Origin: Polytrichum commune | Lineage: Eukaryota; Streptophyta; Polytrichopsida; Polytrichales; Polytrichaceae | Direction: 5' to 3' | DNA length: 64,000 nt | Assembly (NCBI GenBank): GCA_950295325.1 | Contig: OX485807.1 | Location: forward strand, 25,887,666-25,951,665 | Shown here: piece after piece, positions 2,696-32,892 of the stretch | Layout: each line of letters begins with the position of its first letter | Position numbering within the stretch: position 1 is the stretch's first letter | Position numbers and translations under genes: made by a program | Notes under the pieces: generated by a model | The model's input: the letters and a program-made list of their open reading frames with translations, nothing else | The model's database searches: none | What the model was told of the DNA's origin: nothing

Positions 2696-3204
2696 CTGCT
2701 GCAATGTCTTCTGGGTTAGTTAATATATTGTTTTGTCTATCAATAATGGAGTCCAGGGGTGAGGTTTCAGTGTTCTTAAAAACTTTTCGATTTATCTTTT
2801 TGGGGTTTTTTTCATACATTTGACGGTATTTTGATACGGCCTTTAGAATGCAGTCTTTGGTGTATTTTGTGGTGATTTTCCTTGCTTCTTTATTTGTATT
2901 TTTTGCGATGGTTGCTATGGCATCAATCCATTCAGTAGGAGGTGCCGTTGTAACAGGTGGGTGTGGGATGTTTGTGTGTTGGTGGTTTCGTATATCGTTT
3001 AGGATGGGGTGTGCTTTCCAGGGTGGATCGTGTGTGCAATGTATATGGTTTTCCTGATGAGGTGATATGTGTTGAGGTGTCTTTTCCATTTTCTCGCAAG
3101 TTTGCGTGGCAAAAACCCACCTTGTTGTGATGTTCTGTTCGTAAGGTTGGGTAGTGGGTCTGCTTTACAGGTTTCTTCAATTGTTTATGAGATTTTGTAT
3201 ACAA
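2696..3204 (-). pseudogene. LINE linker between endonuclease and reverse transcriptase
   Basis: Two overlapping minus-strand frames (3204-2932 and 3089 downwards) carry the region that in LINEs joins the endonuclease to the RT. Part is Lys-rich and helical in character (KYTKDCILKAVSKYRQMYEK, then KKINRKVFKN), ending with NPEDIAAEIY. The frame then runs into the inserted MITE; the same codons (GAAATATAC) resume on its far side near 2271. A frameshift between the two frames lies around 3090-3190. Confidence 0.65.
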
Positions 3205-4450
3205 TGTGGTCGAATGTTGTACAGGCTTCCGCCCATTGATCCGGGCTTAAGTGTTGGTGGTTTTCGAGTAGGGTGGTAAGGGTTTTTATTTGTGCACAGT
3301 TTTCTTCGAAGAATGTTATGTTGAATTTTTCGATGTTTTCTGGTGGTATTGGGTTTAGTATTCTAGTTGGTGACGTGTTTGTGGGGGGTGGGGATCTGGC
3401 TATAAGGGTGTTGTGGGGGATATCTAGTACAACTGGATAATGGTATGAGTTTAGATTCATGTTTGTGTTTGTGGTAGAAATGAATTTGTTGTTGTCTGGT
3501 GAGTGAATGTAGAATCTATCTATTAGACTTGTTGATGTGTAATTATAGCCTCCTTGTCTGGAGATGCTAGTGTTAGTTGGGATATATTCTAGGTTGAGTG
3601 ATGCGGTGAAAATTTTCCATTGGTAATCTTCTTCTTGTGGAGGGGTATTAAAGTTGTTATTTTGTCTGCCTCTAAGTGCGATATCTCGGTTAAAGTCCCC
3701 ACATAATGTATACATGTGATTGGGGTGTATAGTGATTTTGTTAGTGATTTCGTTCTTAAGGTGTGGAATGAGACATGTGTCTTCTAAGTGTGTAGGCATG
3801 TACATGTGTATGATTAGCCAAGGTATTAGTGGATGGTTGTTTATTTTAATTATTTGTAGGTATGGGGATATATTTACTGGCGTGGGAATTTTGGTAATAT
3901 TCCTAGGGAATGCATATTTCTTGTGGATAAGTGTGAGTAAGCCTCCTCTTCCGGGGGTATAAGACATTATTTGTTGTATGCATCTTGTGAGTGCATGTGT
4001 GTTGTTGAAAATGAGTTTAAATTCCGGAAATAGGTTTTGTATGTATTTTGTAGATTTATTTGCAGTTAGTTTGGTTTCTTGGATATGTATGATTGCTGTG
4101 TTGTTTAGCGAGTTGTTTATTAGGCTTTGTAGGTTTGGTAATGATGTGTTGAGTGATGACGCATTCCATGTTATTATGTTTGTTTCGTGCTCGGTGTCGG
4201 TGTTAATTCTTGGTGTTGGTGTGGGAGTAGCTGGGGGTGGGGGTGGGGGTGGGTGTGAATATTCGTTGATGCTTTCTAGGCATCGGAGTGCTTCGGTGAT
4301 CAATTGATTTGGGAGGAAGGGAAATTTATTTTGAAGGGTGATTGGTGTTGGTGTAGTATCTTGGTTGTGGATAAATTCATATATCTCTGTGTGTATTGAA
4401 TTTTTTAGGTATATTATATCTTGATTGTTTTCTACAAAAGTTGTGTAGGG
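3185..4450 (-). pseudogene. LINE endonuclease domain (AP/EEP family), catalytic Asp changed
   Basis: The frame is open from about 4450 (an annotated Met at 4303 is internal) and starts with a Pro-rich linker of seven consecutive Pro, followed by an exonuclease-endonuclease-phosphatase domain. Visible motifs in order are TWNASSL (Asn of motif I), QETK (catalytic Glu), CGDFN (the GDxN motif) and SLIDRFY. The final motif, which should read S-D-H, reads S-Y-H in LNSYHYPVVLD. A GAC to TAC change therefore removes the last catalytic Asp while leaving the His. In active LINEs this domain nicks target DNA to prime reverse transcription. The frame stops at 3185 inside the linker, and the next segment continues in other frames. 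Confidence 0.82.
4233..4253 (+). other. G-quadruplex motif opposite the LINE polyproline codons
   Basis: Four G runs (5, 5, 5 and 3 or more) separated by single T residues on the plus strand, which encode the proline run of the LINE linker on the minus strand. The pattern satisfies the standard G3+N1-7 quadruplex rule with one-base loops. Confidence 0.7.
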
Positions 4451-5552
4451 GTGAGGTGTTGATATATGCCTTTCGTGGGGGGTTGGTGAGGTTGGCCAGT
4501 CTGATAATCAATGTGTTCGTCCATATGTTATTAAAGTGGTAATTTTGGGGTTGGGCTAGTATGTTATTGCATGTGTCTATTGAGGGGTGGATGGTGATGA
4601 TTAGAGCGTATAGCATATGGGTTAGTGGTAATTGCCTTTGTGTTTGGATATATTGATGTAGATGCGGGTAGGTGGTTATTGCTTGAGGGTGTAGTGGGTG
4701 TGTGTTTTTTAGTATGGGGGCAATTGTGTTTGCTATGTGTTGGTATTCAGGTTGTAGTTTTATAGTGTTTGGAATGAAGTAGATGTTGGCTCTTTTTTTG
4801 TGTGTAGCAGGGTGTGTATGTAGGATGTTAGGCATTGGTCCGGCGTTGGGTTCTATGTCCCCGCATTTTAGTAGTTCTAGTTTGTTAATAAAGTAGTATC
4901 CGTGGGAATGGAGTGTTTTTGGATTTTTCATGTTTGTTTTTAGATATATTATGATTGTGAACTTGGTTGTAGTAAAGAGGTTAGGTATAGCGGGTATGAT
5001 GTTTTCTATTTGTTTGGGTGAGAAGTGTGAGTTTGTATTTTTTATAGATTTTTGGCTTGTTATTGAGTTAGGTCTCCAGTTATTTATGAAGTGGTATGTG
5101 TTATTATTTGTGTGGCGAGGCCGGTAGGCCGAGGCCATTGTATCTTTTGGGTGAGGTTGGTATTTTGAATGAGGGTTTAATAGGTGTTTGAAATAGGGTT
5201 TGTGATGGTGTTTGATGTTGAGGTGAGGTTTATTTAAGGTGAGTAGTTTATATTTACTTTTTGTGAATAGATTAGGTAAGGCAATTATTGTTTTTTGTGT
5301 AGTTTTTGGGAGGTAGTGTATAAGTTTAGTATGTTGGTGGGTAGGCTTTGTGATTGTATTAATGATGGGGTTGAGGGAGTGGTAGTGTATATATCTTGTT
5401 AGTTTTATTTTGTGGCGATGCCGGTAGGCCAAGGCCGTATTGTGTACTTTGTTGTATTGGATAGGATATTGTTGTATTGTGAGTAAATAGATTTGTTTTT
5501 GTGAGGTGTTGGGGGGGTTTTCTTTGTGAATTTTTGATGTTATAGTATTCAT
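4377..5552 (-). pseudogene. LINE N-terminal region with two tandem repeats and a 2A-like motif
   Basis: A 391-codon frame rich in His, Asn, Thr and Ile. Residues about 39-104 and 138-202 are two copies of one module: each opens with AYRxRH and later has a (L/I)PNLFT(K/T)xK motif, about 98 residues apart. Just after the second copy, residues 225-241 contain LLKCGDIEPNAGP, which resembles 2A ribosome-skipping peptides (D-V/I-E-x-N-P-G-P) except that the first Pro of NPGP is Ala. 2A-like sequences at this position are known from other LINEs, where they separate an N-terminal product from the endonuclease-RT product. The start ATG (5550-5552) lies at the centre of a perfect palindrome. The frame ends at 4377, but the endonuclease frame is already open about 100 bases upstream, so the separation looks like a mutation. 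No zinc knuckle or RRM was seen. Confidence 0.72.
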
Positions 5553-5562
5553 GAATACTATA
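5541..5562. repeat. Perfect 22-bp palindrome centred on the LINE start codon
   Basis: The sequence starts TATAGTATTC and ends GAATACTATA around a central ATG/CAT. It is its own reverse complement over 22 bp and includes the start codon of the N-terminal frame. It lies at the 5' boundary of the recognisable LINE, next to AT-rich sequence at 5565-5640. Confidence 0.8.
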
Positions 5563-5671
5563 GGTAGGGTTTTATTTTTAGTATATATTAATAATTTAAT
5601 TATGTTTTTTTTAGTATATAAATATACTATAAGTAATTTATAATTGTACGCCGCCGGGATGTTTGTCGAAA

Positions 5672-7855
5672 TTAGTTTGTCAAGTCCATATTGTTTTCAA
5701 TTTCCGATATGTCCGGATGAGCCGCTTCGATAGCATCCAAGGTAATCTTCATTTGCCTTTGAAGGAGTTGTATTTGGAGCTTGGAATTCTTGTTTGACTC
5801 CGCTTACACATGGTCGGCATAAACTTTTGCCTCTTGCACAATCTCACTTTTAAGGTTCACCATTTCCTTTCGTATTTCATCCGTCCCCTTTTTTACCGCT
5901 GCTTCTACCATCTTGTTGAGATCTTTGTTGGTGATGTTTTGGTGCGGTCCATTCTCCAAAGCTTGGATGGTGTTTGCAAGTGCGGTGTTCACGTCTGAAA
6001 ATCCAAGTCTAACTAGCTCTTCTTTACTAGGTGCATTTATCCCGTCTAGACTTTTTGGATGGGGGGTAAATTCAACATATTTACCAAATATTTTTTCATT
6101 TTTCTTAACAAATTTCTTGTAGACAAACGAGTTGAGGCATTGGACATTGCATGAGCCCGTATGCTTCCCGTTCTCAAGTCTAAAGTAAAAACCGAGAATA
6201 TTTAGTTCTCCCATGCATTTTCGGATTCCTTCTTCGATTTGCATGGTTGTTTTTACCTTATTGAGGTTACGGGCAATTAGAATGAGTGCATTCTTTCGGG
6301 CTTTATCATCTTCTGAGAGTTTTTCGTTACTTGCAAAGTTTACATCTACTATTTCATTGAAAAACGAAAGTTTGAGTGCTTTAATTCTTTTGGCTTCCTC
6401 TGGAGAGGGTGCTTTAATCCAAGCAAACTCTGCATCCGCCGATTTTTGCACATTCGTTATTTCAAAGTCAAGGCCTCGTCGAAATCCATCCCCAACTATT
6501 TCTACAAACAAATCATACCATTATTTATCCTTGATTGACGGGGTTGTGACTTTGACGGAGAGCATGGATGCAATTGCAATGGTATCAAAGGATTTACACA
6601 CTTTGCCTATAGCATGTGTAAATTGGCCAAGCTTGAGGATGAAAGGTCTCAGTCCACAGAGAAGGCCATATCCATCCATTTCAGGGTTTTTAAGGTGGAG
6701 TTTAATAATTCCACTCCATCTTTTGGTCCCATGAAAACAAAAGACAGCTATAGGCTCTCCTAAGACTTCCCCGACCTCTATCCTCATTGCTTTTAGTCTA
6801 TCCTTTGTTAAGTTGAGTATCACATCTCTATCCAATTCTATTCTTTCAATTTTAAAATGGATAGATATGTGATAGTCCAAAGCAAATCCATGGTCACCCA
6901 CTTCCACATCTGAAGGAATCTGGGTGAGATTGTAGTGCATTCCTTCCTTACCATCCGTTCGTATAGAAGGCCACTCTTCTTGGGCAACGAACGGAAAGGA
7001 GGGAGATGACTCCACCATTTCATGTGCTTCAGACTCACACATACATTTTTTGACTAACTCAGTGAAAGAAGGTGTTTGAATGAGAGGCATGTTGGCAAAT
7101 TTTGCAATTGTGTTCATAGCTTGAAAACCAAGCCAATAGGGGGGGGGGCGTGTTCTCTCAGTGGGTGTTGTTCCTTTAACCTTTTTTTGACTTGACAATA
7201 CCACAACAAGCACTGGACGTTTTCCACTTGTAGAATCTATATTTTCATTTTCAAACAACTTACGGGATGATGAGGTTGGAGTGATGGTTGCCATTCTGAT
7301 ATAAGCAAAGCAAACAAACGTTTTGTACTTTAGTTTTGAATGAGGTATACTTCTTATTTTCTTTCCTCTAATTCCTTTCCACAAATTAAGTTGTGGGCCT
7401 CCTAGGAATTGAGAGTGAAAGAAGAAGTGATTTGCATGTTCTAACATCATATGAGTGCTAGTATGAGTACAACTTGCATTCATCCTATGATAACACCTTT
7501 TCCTATTCATATTAGTATTTACAAATTGGTTGTAAGTGCTCTTATGATTTGTCACAACTCTAACATTCCATACATCTCCTAAGCATTTGAGGCAAGTATA
7601 ACTAAAAGCACAAGCATCTACCGTTACTACCACGGATCCATTATTTCTAATGGAACCTTCATTTATGATCTGAACATTAAGGTTGTTATACCATACCTTT
7701 GGATTTATGACGTTCTTATATGTGTTTTTATAGCAAGAGTTTGTAAGGCATTCCCATGTGGTGTGAGAGTTGACACTATGAGAGTATATCCAATATGGTG
7801 TGGGTAGTACTAGCCACATAATGATAACAAGGTAGGTTGCATATGCAACCTTCAT
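5672..7855 (-). pseudogene. Unrecognised protein gene, one frame broken by two TAA codons
   Basis: From an ATG at 7855 one reading frame runs 727 codons to a TAA at 5672-5674, interrupted only by TAA at 6521-6523 and 5804-5806. Three parts are visible. Residues 1-187 have a hydrophobic start (a signal or anchor-like YLVIIMWLVLP) and many Cys. A second possible start, MATITPTSSSRKLF, lies at 7294. Then comes a 250-residue globular part including GTKRWSGIIKLHL and LLCGLRPFILKL, and after the first TAA a Lys-rich part with a KHTGSCNVQCLNSFVYKKF motif. The C-terminus, on both sides of the second TAA, looks like a coiled coil. I do not recognise the family; an ORF1/Gag-like RNA-binding protein of a retroelement is possible. 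Bases 5560-5670 are AT-rich with no gene. Confidence 0.55.
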
Positions 7856-27100: not shown

Positions 27101-28195
27101 GCACGATCGAATTGCTATCATAAAAATTCCGATCACACAGGTTGGCAGAGATTTACTTCCACTCATAAAATGAGTCTATATAGTGAAGATTGAAACTGAA
27201 CACAAAACCCTAAAGAGCATTCTCAACTCTAAAATCGAATTCTTAGTATGGCCATTCCAAGAGACAGACAGCAAAGACTTAAAAGTGCGTGGTTGACTTT
27301 TCTCATGAAAACATGTCTGATCACACAGGTTTGCAGAGATTTAATTCCACTCATAAGTCAGAGTGTGCATGCTGAATCATGAAATTGAACACAAAACCCT
27401 AAAGAGCATTCTCATTCTCAACTTCACTTACCTGTACTCATATTTATGCAAGAACTTGACCTTCTCCGCTTCGGCAGGAGTCCAATTTCCCGGTTTCCCA
27501 TCAGGCAGGGGCAATAGATCCTCCGCCTTTCGTCTCTTAACCCCCCCTTGGTTGAATCCATCCTCCACATCACTGTCTACGTCACTTCCTTGCTCAGAAT
27601 CCGAAGAATCTTGATCACTTTCTGTGGCTCCCGTCAATGGTCTTGCTCCTTCTTCAGCTGCAAACATTTGCCAATTCTCGGCAACAAATTCATCTTCAGA
27701 GCTTCTTCTTGACTGCCTAACCTCATCCTCCTCTCCATTGCTTTCACTGATGTCATCATCCGGGATAGGGCTCCCATTTGTACCTAGAGATTGTGATGTT
27801 GTTATTTTATTTGCAATGTCCGCTTCAACTTGCTCCGAGGTGCTCAGTTTTTCAGAGGTAAATCCAGCCTCACTGGCATCACCTTCTTCTTCCGAACAAT
27901 TCTCCTCGACGAGAGGCTCAAGACCTAAATTGTCAACTCCGGAGACATAAATCTTCCGTTGCCTTGGCTTCGCAGAGAAAAAACTCTTGCAAATCCTTGG
28001 TGGAGTCACCACAAATTGTTGACCTATATTACATCTAGAGAAGAATGATTTTTTTCTAAATTGAAGACAAGAGAAATGTGGACGATGATGATGAGACTGC
28101 ACTAAGGCGGCTCTGCAATGATTCTGAGCTCCTTCATGGCAACCATTAGGCGACGAAGTACACAGAGGCGGTCCTACACCTATGGAAATCCCCAT
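24121..28195 (-). CDS. GNAT-family N-acetyltransferase, probably plastid-targeted
   Basis: Three exons on the minus strand, 28195-27432, 26474-26082 and 24355-24121, with GT-AG junctions. The 1392 nt encode 463 aa. Residues 1-110 are Ser/Arg/Cys-rich and poor in acidic residues, like a transit peptide (ending near KPRQRKIYVSG). Residues 115-235 are acidic and low-complexity (SEEEGD, SDSEQGSDVDSDVED). The GNAT domain follows: VVAGTVELSFSV, PYICNMAVTKDYRRRGLGRQ (acetyl-CoA-binding R-x-x-G-x-G at 385-390) and CRMVDTAPLNMYQNAGYQV. The domain resembles plant plastid GNATs that acetylate protein N-termini and Lys side chains; the exact orthologue is not certain. Intron 1 (957 bp) is almost wholly a tandem repeat, and intron 2 (1726 bp) carries family D repeats. 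Confidence 0.9.
24697..24945 (+). repeat. Dispersed repeat family D, copy in GNAT intron 2
   Basis: Blocks ATCTTATTCATTATCAATAT, AGGTCCCTCCAACTATGCTG, ACTATTGAGTCTAGAATGG, CAATCTAATCTCTTT, GCATACCATTCAAAGTATAG and GTGTCCAATCAAGATAAG occur in family order. Confidence 0.65.
25030..25205 (+). repeat. Dispersed repeat family D, copy in GNAT intron 2
   Basis: Contains CCTCCCAATTGTGGTAACTA, TTGAACCTAGAATGGTG, GAGCACGTAGTCCAATCTC, ACACGTGTTTTTTTTGTGTC and CACTCAAATATAGGTG, a truncated family member directly after the copy at 24697-24945. Confidence 0.62.
25498..25690 (-). repeat. Dispersed repeat family D, inverted copy in GNAT intron 2
   Basis: Contains GGCCTAATTCAGTTACTTAT, then CACCTATATTTGAGTGGTGT, then GGTGTGGATCTAAGGATGG, then GAAGAGATTGGATTACCTG, in the reverse orientation of the copy at 25030-25205. 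The two could pair in the pre-mRNA. Confidence 0.65.
26584..27425 (-). repeat. Five tandem units of about 170-188 bp filling GNAT intron 1
   Basis: Unit starts recognised by CTGATCACACAGGTTGGCAG lie at about 26585, 26772, 26942, 27129 and 27317 (spacing 187, 170, 187 and 188 bp). Each unit also has TGAAACTGAAxxCAAAACCC, then AAAGAGCATTCTCAA. The array ends within about ten bases of the exon 1 splice donor at 27431. It encodes nothing. Confidence 0.85.
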
Positions 28196-29123
28196 GACAA
28201 CAAATTGCTAAAGAATTCACCAAAGCAAAAAGAAAAGGGATGCTCTGATAAACCTCCTACAAGTTTCCTTGAACTTCAGAGACAAGGATTCTTGTGCAAC
28301 CAATACATGGTACACGATGTCTACGGCCTCCTCCACCTTCTCAAACACAAGCATATGTAAATCCTGTAAAAAGATAAACCTTTTAACAAATGAGCCCAAC
28401 TGAATAAGACCAGACTACCCTTCCTCCTCAGAATTGATGCATATTTTGGCTAAGGTTTATTGATGAGGCTATGTAACCCATTACATTTGACCAAGAAATC
28501 AACATTCGTGACATAACAAGAGCATCCAAGCTTTTATCTTCGAGATGCGTCCTCCCAGCCGAGGAGGTCACCGTTATTTTGGCATGCCCTTTGTTCAGCG
28601 AATTCTCATAGCAGGGATCTGGACTCTAAAATGATGAGAGGAGAAAAACAGGGGGCCCAAGGAGAACTAACGATAGGCGAGAGCAGTTTTCTCGTAAGTG
28701 CCGGAGCCACTGAGACTCTGCCACGTGACAAAGGCATACTTATCCTCTTTTTATGGCGATATTCTTGTCAGTTCTCGGTTGGGTTGCCACTTTATCACCA
28801 TCCTTGCCCACCTAATCCATTTGCCACCCTGAAATTGTGAAGAAAAAGCCATCATCAAGACCTGCTGTCATCACAATCTACAATGTACTCTCAAAAGGAT
28901 AGGCTCCGTTATCCACTTCCAAAAACTTCACCAAAATCATCCTCACGCAGTCCAGATTCTCACTCTCGAATGTGACTTGGGTTTGGAGGTTTTCATGACA
29001 ACAGGTTTAGCAAGATCGTGGCTCTGGAATTTTGTTTTCGAAGGTATGGGTCAACGGCAGTAAGGTTGCAGTAGCACTTACCCCTGTGGATAGTAATTGA
29101 AGGTATTGCTTCCGATTTCCGAG
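28196..29123. promoter_or_regulatory. Divergent spacer between the GNAT and phosphatase-like genes
   Basis: About 930 bp separate two ATGs pointing away from each other, so the spacer should hold both 5' UTRs and promoters. I see no clear TATA box or repeated motif. A short first non-coding exon for either gene cannot be excluded. Confidence 0.4.
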
Positions 29124-32100
29124 ATGAATACATGCAAAGTCATAGTGAAGCATGGGGTTTCACTTGTAACGGGAGCTTCCACTTCGAATTCGAATTCGAG
29201 TAGTTCCTTCCATGGCAATATGGGTACCATGGCAAATGCCCATAGGTTAGTCCCTCTTTGTTCATCTTCTTCTTCATCGTCCTCTTCGCAAGCTGAGTTT
29301 TTCTCAGTGCGGGCACTTGCGCATTCGTTCCCTCATCTTTGTGCCAGGCAAGCTCCCTCGCAGCAGCTGCAGCAATGGCGGAGCTTCGGCCAATCGCAGG
29401 CTCTGCAGTACAACAGCCTCGGAGGCCCATTTTTGGTGAGCTTCAAGAGGTCCGTTCGCAATGGAGATGGCTCCACAACAATTGTTGCGTCTTCGCAGAA
29501 TGGTGGTGAGAAAGATGTAGCGGTGGTCGCACAGCAGCAGGAGGAGGATGGAGGTCCCAAGTTCGATGTGAGCAGCAATTGTGTGACTCCCGTGTTCCGA
29601 TTCTCGCCCTTCATCCAGCAACCTTCGGTATGTCTGTCTGTCTGTCTGTCCGTCCCATTACTCTTTTTCGTGCTTCTGCCCGAAAATTGGTTCCCAAGAC
29701 CTTTGGTTTCCGAATCACATGGTTAAGCTATGTGCAAGAACATATCAGCTTCACGTAGCCACAACCGAAAAGCTTACAGAGTAGCCATTTGAGGGATGAT
29801 GATGCATCGTCATCATCTCTTAAGCTGAAACAGAGGCGACATGAATGTGACATTTTCGTCGCCTTAAACCTGCAGGACTTGTAATGTGTTTCGCAATGGA
29901 TGGTTTCGCTCACCATCTTTTCTCACTTTGGTTCATCTTGTAGTGAAGTTGAGTTCTGTTTCTCCACTAACCTTCGGTATGTCTGTCTGTCTGTCCCATG
30001 TTTTCTTTCTTGAGCTTCCGCACAAGAAATTTGGTTTAGAAGACTTGCAATGGTTTCAAACCACACTATTGAAGAAAATTTGAATACTTAGTATTGAACT
30101 TTCGGTCTTCAGCAACCTTCAGTCTGTTTGTCTGTCTTTCTGTCTTGTCTGTCCCATTTTCTTTTCCTTGAGCTTCCGCACACAGAAATTTGGTTTCTAA
30201 GACTTGTGATGGTTTCAAAACCTCACAACGGAAAGGGCTTACGTAGTAGCCATTTGAGGGATGATTATCTCTTAAGGCTGGAACAGATGCGACATGAATG
30301 TGAAATTGTTGTTACCTAAAACCTGCAGGGCTTGCATTTCAGAGGGTTCCTGCAATGGATGATCCGTTTGCTTCCCTCATCATTTTTACTCGCTATGGTT
30401 CACCTTATAGTTCATTTCCTCTTCCTTGAGCTTCCGCAAAAAAAATCGGTTTACAAGACTTATGACGGTTTTAAAACCACACTATGGAGGTTATTTTGAA
30501 CACACAAGTATTAAACGTTCGCTCTCCATCTTTTTCAATTGAGTTCACCTTATAAGTTGGATTCTCCCAGTTTCTCCAGCAACCTTCGGTAGGTCCGTCT
30601 GTTCCATTTTCTGTTCCTTGAGCTTCCGCACACAAAAATTCGGTTTTCTATGACTAGTCATGGTTTTAAAACCTCTCTACGGAAAGGCTTACATAGTAGG
30701 CATTTAAGGGATGGTGATAAGGCTGAAACAGAGGTGGCATGAATGTGGAAACTGTTTTTTGCCTTAAACCTGCAGGACTTACATTTTATTGGGTTTCTGT
30801 AATGGATGATCCGTTTGCTTTTCTCTCCATCTCTCTCACTTGTGTCACGTTGTAGTGAAGTTGTATCCCTTAATTCCTTAGTTGCAAGAAAGGATTATTC
30901 AATGTGACAACGCACCCTCAATAACTGAAAACACTGGTGATTCTGTAAGAAGGTTGATGCTCAGAAAATAAGGGACGTTGAACTGTAACATGCTTTCCTT
31001 TTGCAGGACCTGGAGAATACGAACCTCCGAATCCTCTTCCTGAGTGAGGGTAATGTGTGTCGATCTGTCTATGCTGAAGCGATTTTTAATTCCCTTATTG
31101 AAGAGCATGGGATGCAAGAATTTGTTGAATGTTCTTCAAAGGTATGATGAATCTGTTTTTAACTCTTTTTCTTCTTTGTAACCTCGAAGTGTGGGGATGT
31201 AAGTATTTCTTGTAATAGGTGGTACTTGCTATATATTCAACTTGTAATACATTTGCAAGGTCTGATTACAAAATTATGCTTGTTACGACTGAAGAGGGAA
31301 TACTATTTTAAGGAAGCTCAAGGTCGGAGTCTCAAATTTCGAGTGAGTTAGCAGAGAACCTGACATATGCTTAGGTTTCAATGCATTGGTCCTAGACCAC
31401 ACAACATAATTGTATGAAAGATCAACTGAGTGTGGAATTGGTTGGACTTAACAATTTCTGGCCACCATCTGCAGGGTTCAAGGGATTACAACATTGGTGA
31501 ACGCCCTGATCCTCGAGCATTGCAAGTAGCTGAGGAATTGGGATTGAAGTTGCCAGATGGCGTAGCCCGTGTTTTTGATTGTCATTCTGACATTGTTTTA
31601 TCGGATCTACTGGTTGTTATGGATAAGGTGATGAATGTAGACAAATATTAGCGTCTTTTATAGCTCTTTTTGTTACTTCCATCAAATAAAACAATCTTTG
31701 AGCAATTAAATGAACTTTTCATTAAACTGCATCAAACGAAGTTTATGTCACATAAAGATCTGGGCATTTCCTCACAAGCAATCTTGCTTTGTTCACTGAA
31801 TCTCAAATGTTTGATTGGCTACATTTTGCAGTTCAATGCATCAGATGTTCTCAAGGAGGTCACTGTATATGAGGCAGTTGATAAGGAGGCTCAATATTGT
31901 TACAAAGTGCGACGCCTTTCTGAATTTTGCAGGACAAAAGTGGTGTGGTACCCTTACCCTACCCATTTCCGTCTTTAGAACCACATTTGAATCACCATTT
32001 TCGTGTGCCTATTCAAGAAGTAGACAGTGCAATATGCAAAAGTGAATGAGCTGGAGAGTCTCAATGCGAACTTGATCAAACAGCCTTGTAGTTGTAATAT

Positions 32101-32892
32101 GCACACATCAAATACTTTAAAAGAGCGTCCTGGGTATCAATGTTTCAGTATGTGCTTATACAAACTAAGAACTCTAAGGTCTCTTGGAATACGAAGATCG
32201 TAATATGTAATGGTTGCTACAGACCCGAACTTTGTGTGTGGGTGATAATTTTGGGAGAGGATGTGTGCTGACAGATAGAAGACATCGATGATCCACTTTA
32301 TGGCAACATGGGGGGCCCTGAGGAATTGGTACTTTTTCTCCTTAACAAGCATTTCTGCTCTTTAATAAAACACTTGAATCTGTCACTTGACCATGTCTGG
32401 TGGACGCATTTTAGTGTAACAAATAACTTACATTTGTGTTTCAAAGATCACATATCTTCAATTTCAACTGCAATTTTATGACCCTGGACTTTGATTTTTC
32501 CAGGACCTCCTGCGTGAGGCATATGAAGACATACGAGATTCTTGTGTAGGCCTCATGCAGACTATACTGGACATCAAGGCCAATCTCCAAGGTATCAAAA
32601 TGTGCATAGTTTGATAAATATTCAGTTTCTCGCAGTCAAATCATGAACACCTTTGTTGCATATATACCAATCAAATTGGTCAGGTTAATTTCTTGTGGAG
32701 CACAGCAGTTTTATTTTTTGCATTAATTTTTCTGTTTCGTTTGGAACTATTTTCTGTGACGTAGGTTCAGAGACCATAAAGCAGGGAATAGCGAAATCGC
32801 TGGGTGAAATGGAGTCACTGGACTGGCTCGTACCTCCGATGCTGCAGAAAGCAGACTCTATTTTAACTGAGCGAAATCTGGAGCAATTTTAA
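29124..32892 (+). CDS. Low-molecular-weight protein tyrosine phosphatase-like protein with Ser in place of the catalytic Cys
   Basis: Seven exons: 29124-29627, 31007-31141, 31475-31627, 31832-31939, 32275-32328, 32504-32591 and 32765-32892, all GT-AG; 389 aa. The ATG at 29124 is the first in frame. Residues 1-110 are Ser-rich with a run of nine Ser and few acidic residues, suggesting a plastid transit peptide. The LMW-PTP-like domain begins near 172. The P-loop, usually C-x5-R (for example CLGNICRS), reads SEGNVCRS at 181-188: the nucleophilic Cys is Ser (codon AGT) while the Arg stays. The RPDPRAL segment and the general-acid Asp motif DDPLYG (306-310) are kept. Loss of only the nucleophile suggests a substrate- or anion-binding pseudophosphatase. 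Whether orthologues share the Ser I cannot check. Exons are intact and conserved in style, so this is not an obvious pseudogene. Confidence 0.87.
29628..30800 (+). repeat. Tandem-duplicated segments in intron 1 of the phosphatase-like gene
   Basis: The exon 1 end and donor (AGCAACCTTCGGTATGTCTG) recur as CCTTCGGTATGTCTG near 29971, AGCAACCTTCAGTCTG near 30111 and AGCAACCTTCGGTAGGTCC near 30579. A second block (CATTTGAGGGATG, then GCGACATGAATGTGA, then AAACCTGCAGGACTT) recurs near 29788, 30251 and 30702, a period of about 455 bp. Intron 1 thus contains three extra donor-like and three acceptor-like copies. Confidence 0.8.

Follow-up and report, generated by a model that had tools for sequence, protein, structure and literature searches.

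What becomes of a phosphatase fold whose nucleophile has gone, and is a gene with such a change a damaged copy or one that has been kept? This question is raised by a locus of the moss Polytrichum commune, in a window of 64,000 nucleotides (the whole stretch of DNA that was analysed), where the P-loop of an LMW-PTP-like protein carries serine in place of the nucleophilic cysteine. A sequence-only reading had described the serine as a feature of this copy, had noted that the Arg and the DP motif are retained, had taken the intact splicing of seven exons and a likely plastid transit peptide to suggest a selected pseudophosphatase rather than a dead gene, and had held that such a pocket traps substrate.

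In the gene (Table 1), all six introns are bounded by GT-AG and the frame is maintained, in an exon model built from homology and splice sites rather than from transcripts of Polytrichum commune. The first residues of exon 1 are similar in the Ceratodon and Physcomitrium proteins. The P-loop DNA, AGTGAGGGTAATGTGTGTCGATCT, is translated as SEGNVCRS, with AGT as the codon of Ser181, and both Arg187 and Asp306-Pro307 are present. The serine, the Arg with the DP motif and the in-frame splicing were thus all confirmed on direct reading.

Table 1. Positions of the gene, its exons and its motifs in the window
Feature	Position	Strand	Remarks
Gene	29124..32892	+	Seven exons; spliced product of 389 aa
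Exon 1	29124..29627	+	Residues 1-168; start, plastid-like presequence, N-terminal motif
Presequence	29124..29564	+	Ser/Thr-rich, near-zero acidic in first 110 residues; likely transit peptide by composition
N-terminal motif DVSSNCVTPVFR	29565..29600	+	Residues 148-159; absent from canonical LMW-PTPs (regular expression)
Exon 2	31007..31141	+	Residues 169-213; contains P-loop
P-loop SEGNVCRS	31043..31066	+	Residues 181-188: Ser181 (nucleophile position), Glu182, Cys186, Arg187, Ser188
Exon 3	31475..31627	+	Residues 214-264
Exon 4	31832..31939	+	Residues 265-300
Exon 5	32275..32328	+	Residues 301-318; contains D-loop DIDDPLYGN
D-loop Asp306-Pro307-Leu308	32290..32298	+	Acid retained; Leu in place of ring-wall Tyr
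Exon 6	32504..32591	+	Residues 319-347 and base 1 of codon 348
Exon 7	32765..32892	+	Remainder of residue 348 to residue 389, stop; family-specific C-terminal extension
C-terminal motif WLVPPML	32824..32844	+	Residues 368-374, close to the C-terminus

The protein belongs to the LMW-PTP fold family, since it has that fold and a profile score above the curated cut-off: a match to Pfam LMWPc (PF01451) covers residues 177-335 (E value, 1.3e-21; score, 77.8 bits; cut-off, 23.2). The core of an orthologue model matches LMW-PTPs in the PDB, in a comparison that used one such model, mainly its residues 160-337, and scarcely covers the C-terminal tail. Among the features of a catalytic LMW-PTP, the phosphate-binding Arg187 and the D-loop acid of Asp306-Pro307 are present, and the Cys nucleophile of C(X)5R (Ser181) and the ring-wall Tyr after DP (Leu308) are absent. 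With residues 165-389 as the query, the nearest named proteins were those of the mosses Ceratodon (81% identity) and Physcomitrium (80%), the latter having an orthologue (P0002).

A search of the moss's own genome, in which the best candidates were scored, returned the window locus and a weak match to the canonical LMW-PTP gene, and no other locus. The canonical gene lies on another contig (G000:C1:36437000-36444000; L012 1338-4013) and encodes CLGNICRS; an intron falls within its P-loop (CLG / NICRS), a gene structure unlike that of the window gene.

The nucleophile position across the green lineage

Relatives were collected by a search with residues 165-389, which gave 53 proteins, and by a profile search that scored 7999 candidates and retrieved 164 proteins, the best 120 of which were used. 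The window protein and the 123 distinct matches from both searches were aligned as a family of 124 rows. The nucleophile column, which held 50 Ser, 3 Gly, and 1 gap in a first alignment of the 53 proteins with the window protein, held 108 Ser, 6 Gly, 1 Val, 9 gaps, and no Cys in the full alignment. The Val row (P0115) has no P-loop at this column and was counted as misaligned, leaving 114 rows that bear a nucleophile residue; in one of the Ser rows (P0052) the loop is shortened in the gene model, so that 113 loops are whole (107 Ser and 6 Gly). Glycine was found in P0040 (Bryopsis), P0043, P0049, P0062, P0084, and P0096. A Cys-type loop pattern was found in 0 of the 124 rows, whereas the canonical LMW-PTPs listed have Cys in 120/120 (CLGNICRS in 118 and CWGNICRS in 2; best 120 of 7998). 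With 108 Ser, 6 Gly and no Cys, Ser181 is not an isolated oddity. The serine is therefore real but marks a whole ancient family and not a single copy, and the prospect that the orthologues would all have Cys is contradicted.

A tree was calculated from 73 domain sequences: 49 family rows (the window protein and 48 of the 123 matches), 18 canonical rows (17 taken from the 120 listed, plus the copy from the moss's own genome), and 6 solved chains, all partial. A branch with support of 100/99 separates the 49 family rows from the rest, and they form a clade if the root is outside the family, in a tree whose bootstrap is not fully settled and in which long branches join the family and animal chains. 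An orthologue of the Arabidopsis enzyme APH with a mutated Cys was rejected as an identity for the window gene, because the family and canonical rows are separate at that branch.

Character changes were counted on this tree, rooted on the non-family rows. At the nucleophile column Ser is ancestral and there are two changes, the Gly rows P0040 and P0043; this reconstruction implies that the P-loop probably lacked Cys already before the split between chlorophytes and streptophytes. Glu182 shows no change on the 49-row tree, and Cys186, Arg187, Asp306, Pro307, and Leu308 show one each, compared with three at N184, five at S188, and ten at the median column. The single departures are all due to P0008 (Ceratodon purpureus KC19_2G236400), a second copy in that moss that reads SEGNLFQS and has lost the Arg, the DP motif, and the C-terminal WLVPP. 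Its branch length of 0.22, against 0.053 for P0001 and 0.091 for the window gene, marks it as a faster-evolving paralogue.

The family domain of the window protein is 83.3% identical to that of Ceratodon (135/162), compared with 87.2% (136/156) for the canonical enzyme. The corresponding values are 62.3 and 77.6% for Ceratopteris, 66.7 and 72.4% for Diphasiastrum, and 55.2 and 71.8% for Mesotaenium, a name read from the code Mesen1. Judged by these identities, the family domain evolves somewhat faster than the canonical enzyme, yet is clearly under constraint. The catalytic residue has been lost in a retained fold and the loss is conserved among orthologues over a long time, as expected of a pseudophosphatase. 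With the gene intact and the domain so similar to that of Ceratodon, the proposal of a selected pseudophosphatase rather than a dead gene is upheld.

Every family match listed with a readable organism name came from a green plant or alga, many matches being nameless. The land plants listed are mosses including Sphagnum, liverworts, the lycophyte Diphasiastrum, and the ferns Adiantum and Ceratopteris; the algae are the streptophytes Klebsormidium and Closterium and chlorophytes such as Coccomyxa, Bryopsis, Volvox, and Chloropicon. Seed plants and Selaginella do not occur among the family matches listed (best 120 of 164 in the profile search). The canonical moss enzyme, used as a query against the same database, brought up many seed plants by name, as well as Selaginella moellendorffii (best 120 of 7998), so the database does contain seed plants. 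The matches listed are most simply read as a loss of the family before seed plants arose, although absence from such a listing does not prove loss. No relative was found in one scan of prokaryotic genomes with two short peptide patterns, and a bacterial origin was set aside on this basis, although two such patterns limit rather than exclude a prokaryotic source. A plasmid search with the P-loop exon gave no match.

The rest of the pocket and the termini

The remaining pocket residues were compared with 61 of the 121 canonical rows, which were aligned with the family. The residue following the nucleophile is Glu in 114/115 ungapped family rows (the exception is P0115) and Leu (60) or Trp (1) in the canonical rows; the first residue past DP is Leu in 121/122 ungapped family rows, compared with Tyr in 61/61. 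By our own count from the alignment, Glu182 and Leu308 correspond to positions 13 and 131 of bovine LMW-PTP. Arg187 is found in 113/115 and the D-loop Asp in 121/122 ungapped family rows, and Asp306, Pro307, Tyr309, and Arg187 are all nearly invariant. The aromatic position of the W-loop is still Tyr (Y218; 114/122 ungapped rows). In some family rows S188 is replaced by Ala or Gly and N184 by Gly or Asp, at positions that are uniform in the canonical rows and that help, in active enzymes, to hold the loop and stabilise its thiolate; since both lie below the median column in changes, they appear relaxed only relative to the canonical enzyme. Collectively, the retention of Arg187 and Asp306, the drift at S188 and N184, and the residues Glu182 and Leu308 suggest that the anion-holding part of the pocket has been retained, that the support of the thiolate is looser, and that the walls for the phosphotyrosine ring have been rebuilt.

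In the LMW-PTP of Vibrio vulnificus, P-loop Val10 and D-loop Tyr121, at the equivalent positions, lie on either side of the bound ligand's ring, and the Cys-to-Ala form still binds phosphate (PMC7948962). Anion binding by the window protein is nevertheless not assured, because Glu182, at the entrance to the pocket, may drive anions away. A Cys-to-Ser change abolishes the activity of Arabidopsis APH (PMC9345830), and by analogy catalysis through the ordinary route is unlikely in the window protein. If the family does no catalysis, the retained D-loop Asp lacks an explanation.

Two segments outside the core set the family apart. A regular expression for a WLxPPML tail matched 110/124 family rows and 0/121 canonical rows; the tail ends 2-15 residues before the C-terminus in 109 of these 110, and W368 is found in 112/116 ungapped family rows. 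Like Arg187, the D-loop Asp and Glu182, the tail is retained in chlorophytes as well as in streptophytes. A strict pattern for the N-terminal motif, DVSxxxVxPxFR, matched 64/124 family rows, some of the family rows being incomplete N-terminally, and 0/121 canonical rows. In AlphaFold models of two orthologues of the window protein (P0015 and P0002), the core has high confidence and both motifs have lower confidence: the mean values of 10-residue blocks are 67-69 for both motifs of P0015 and, for P0002, 73-77 across the N-terminal and 63-83 across the C-terminal motif. That the motifs are conserved yet not firmly placed in these models suggests that they may dock a partner.

Ahead of the N-terminal motif, the first 110 residues of the window protein include 1 D/E, 8 R/K, and 29 S/T, a composition as in plastid transit peptides. 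Among 52 rows, the window protein included, in which the motif is present and preceded by 35 residues or more, acidic residues make up no more than 5% of the first 60 in 37 and exceed this in 15, by a count of composition.

Readings of a pocket without its nucleophile

We put a probability of about 0.5 on the reading that best explains these results, namely an ancient pseudophosphatase of the LMW-PTP fold in the green lineage, non-catalytic and probably a plastid binding or scaffold protein. Such a protein would be imported into the plastid and would not hydrolyse phosphate esters; its P-loop and Arg187 would grip a negatively charged group on a ligand or partner, Glu182 and Leu308 would alter what fits at the mouth of the pocket, and the two terminal motifs would dock a partner. 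As a member of a family that seems always to have lacked the catalytic cysteine, it was probably retained for binding and not for phosphate removal, and the ligand need not be phosphotyrosine.

The main rival, which we hold to be unlikely, is that the pocket is a relic: the P-loop would serve fold stability, Glu182 would cap Arg187 with no ligand bound, and the protein would act wholly as a scaffold, through a conserved surface and the terminal motifs. An unchanging Glu182 beside a retained Arg187, pocket helpers S188 and N184 that drift where the canonical rows are uniform, and a C-terminal motif in 110 of the 124 rows all agree with this, but the near-invariance of Asp306, Pro307, Tyr309, and Arg187 goes beyond what fold stability alone seems to require. 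The mechanism of the sequence-only reading, in which phosphotyrosine proteins would be bound uncleaved in a classical LMW-PTP pocket, fits Ser in place of Cys, the retention of the Arg and DP, and the Tyr at the W-loop position. It fares worse at the walls of the pocket, where the ring-flanking residues are Glu and Leu and not Leu and Tyr, and at the nucleophile position itself, where six members have Gly; because of Glu182, Leu308, and these Gly members, we consider a classical trap distinctly improbable. The Gly members (6/114 rows; two changes on the 49-row tree) also weigh against a phospho-carrier or sensor, in which Ser181 would be phosphorylated by an energy-rich donor (phosphoarginine, for example) and would stay in the phosphoserine form. 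This very doubtful idea is hinted at by a structure reported for the YwlE C7S mutant with a phosphorylated serine.

A sequencing error or decaying copy has a negligible probability. The diverged second Ceratodon copy P0008 (SEGNLFQS, DP lost) shows that extra copies of the gene do decay, but its branch is long (0.22) beside that of the window gene (0.091), Ser is common to almost all homologues, and the window gene, with frame and splice sites intact, is the single locus besides the canonical gene among the best candidates in its own genome. The orthologues and the intact locus thus rule out a pseudogene or sequencing error. A more speculative form of the binding reading, to which we give long odds, is a plastid reader domain of the green lineage whose rebuilt pocket (Ser or Gly, a near-invariant Glu, Arg, and a Leu wall) would recognise a phospho-group that is basic or in some other way unusual, for example protein phosphoarginine, with the WLxPPML tail handing it over to a partner; the domain would have persisted from the green algae up to the ferns and disappeared before the seed plants.

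The dual-specificity phosphatase fold is unrelated to that of LMW-PTPs, and the phosphatase fold of LSF1 differs from it as well. STYX and MK-STYX resemble the moss family in that catalytic residues have been naturally lost in a retained phosphatase domain, but they belong to the dual-specificity phosphatases (PMC8907265). LSF1, a plastid phosphatase-like protein of starch breakdown that is described as a proposed scaffold, is known from Arabidopsis and, unlike the moss family, is SEX4-like with a starch-binding domain (PMC8968401); by analogy, it may be regarded as a precedent for scaffolding by a phosphatase-like protein of the plastid. YwlE C7S (4kk4) shares both the fold and Ser at the nucleophile position, but it is reportedly an engineered mutant of an arginine phosphatase, whereas the Ser of the moss family is natural and ancestral. 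The aligned chains of animal, protist and bacterial LMW-PTPs (bovine 1bvh and 1phr, Entamoeba 3ido, and cyanobacterial slr0328, 5o7b) have Cys followed by Leu and Tyr-Tyr after DP, unlike the family.

APH (AT3G44620) and its moss relative, found in the same species as the window gene, share the Pfam family, the Arg, and DP with the window protein. They differ from the window family in having CLGNICRS, Tyr-Tyr after DP, and no WLxPPML, in their separate place in the tree, and in the occurrence of their type in seed plants. APH is an active enzyme (PMC9345830), and one LMW-PTP is counted for Arabidopsis in a review of plant PTPs (PMC11593807).

A review names four families with known pseudophosphatases: PTP, DUSP, myotubularin, and PTEN (PMC9464862). 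In a search of the open-access literature, no description of an LMW-PTP-class pseudophosphatase in green organisms was found. If the preferred reading of a non-catalytic plastid protein is correct, the pseudophosphatase concept would extend to the LMW-PTP class, in the form of a group apparently devoid of its nucleophile ever since green algae and land plants last shared an ancestor, and unseen in seed plants among the matches listed. Database names such as "protein-tyrosine-phosphatase" for some family members would then seem misleading.

Other features of the window

Upstream of the gene by about 0.9 kb, an open frame of 259 residues lies on the minus strand (27428-28207); it is divergent, has no Pfam match, and is acidic in its second half by eye. 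Farther upstream, also on the minus strand, a reverse transcriptase domain was found at 910-1710 (RVT_1; E value, 1e-16). The neighbouring minus-strand open reading frames at 3185-5696 resemble, on inspection by eye, further parts of a retroelement, although the one scanned (3185-4504) has no Pfam match. Within the gene, intron 1 contains imperfect direct repeats (29824-30830) that are spaced by roughly 160-450 bases: a 50-nt unit in four copies (62-92% to the reference), a 43-nt unit in four copies, and units of 75 and 58 nt in two copies each.
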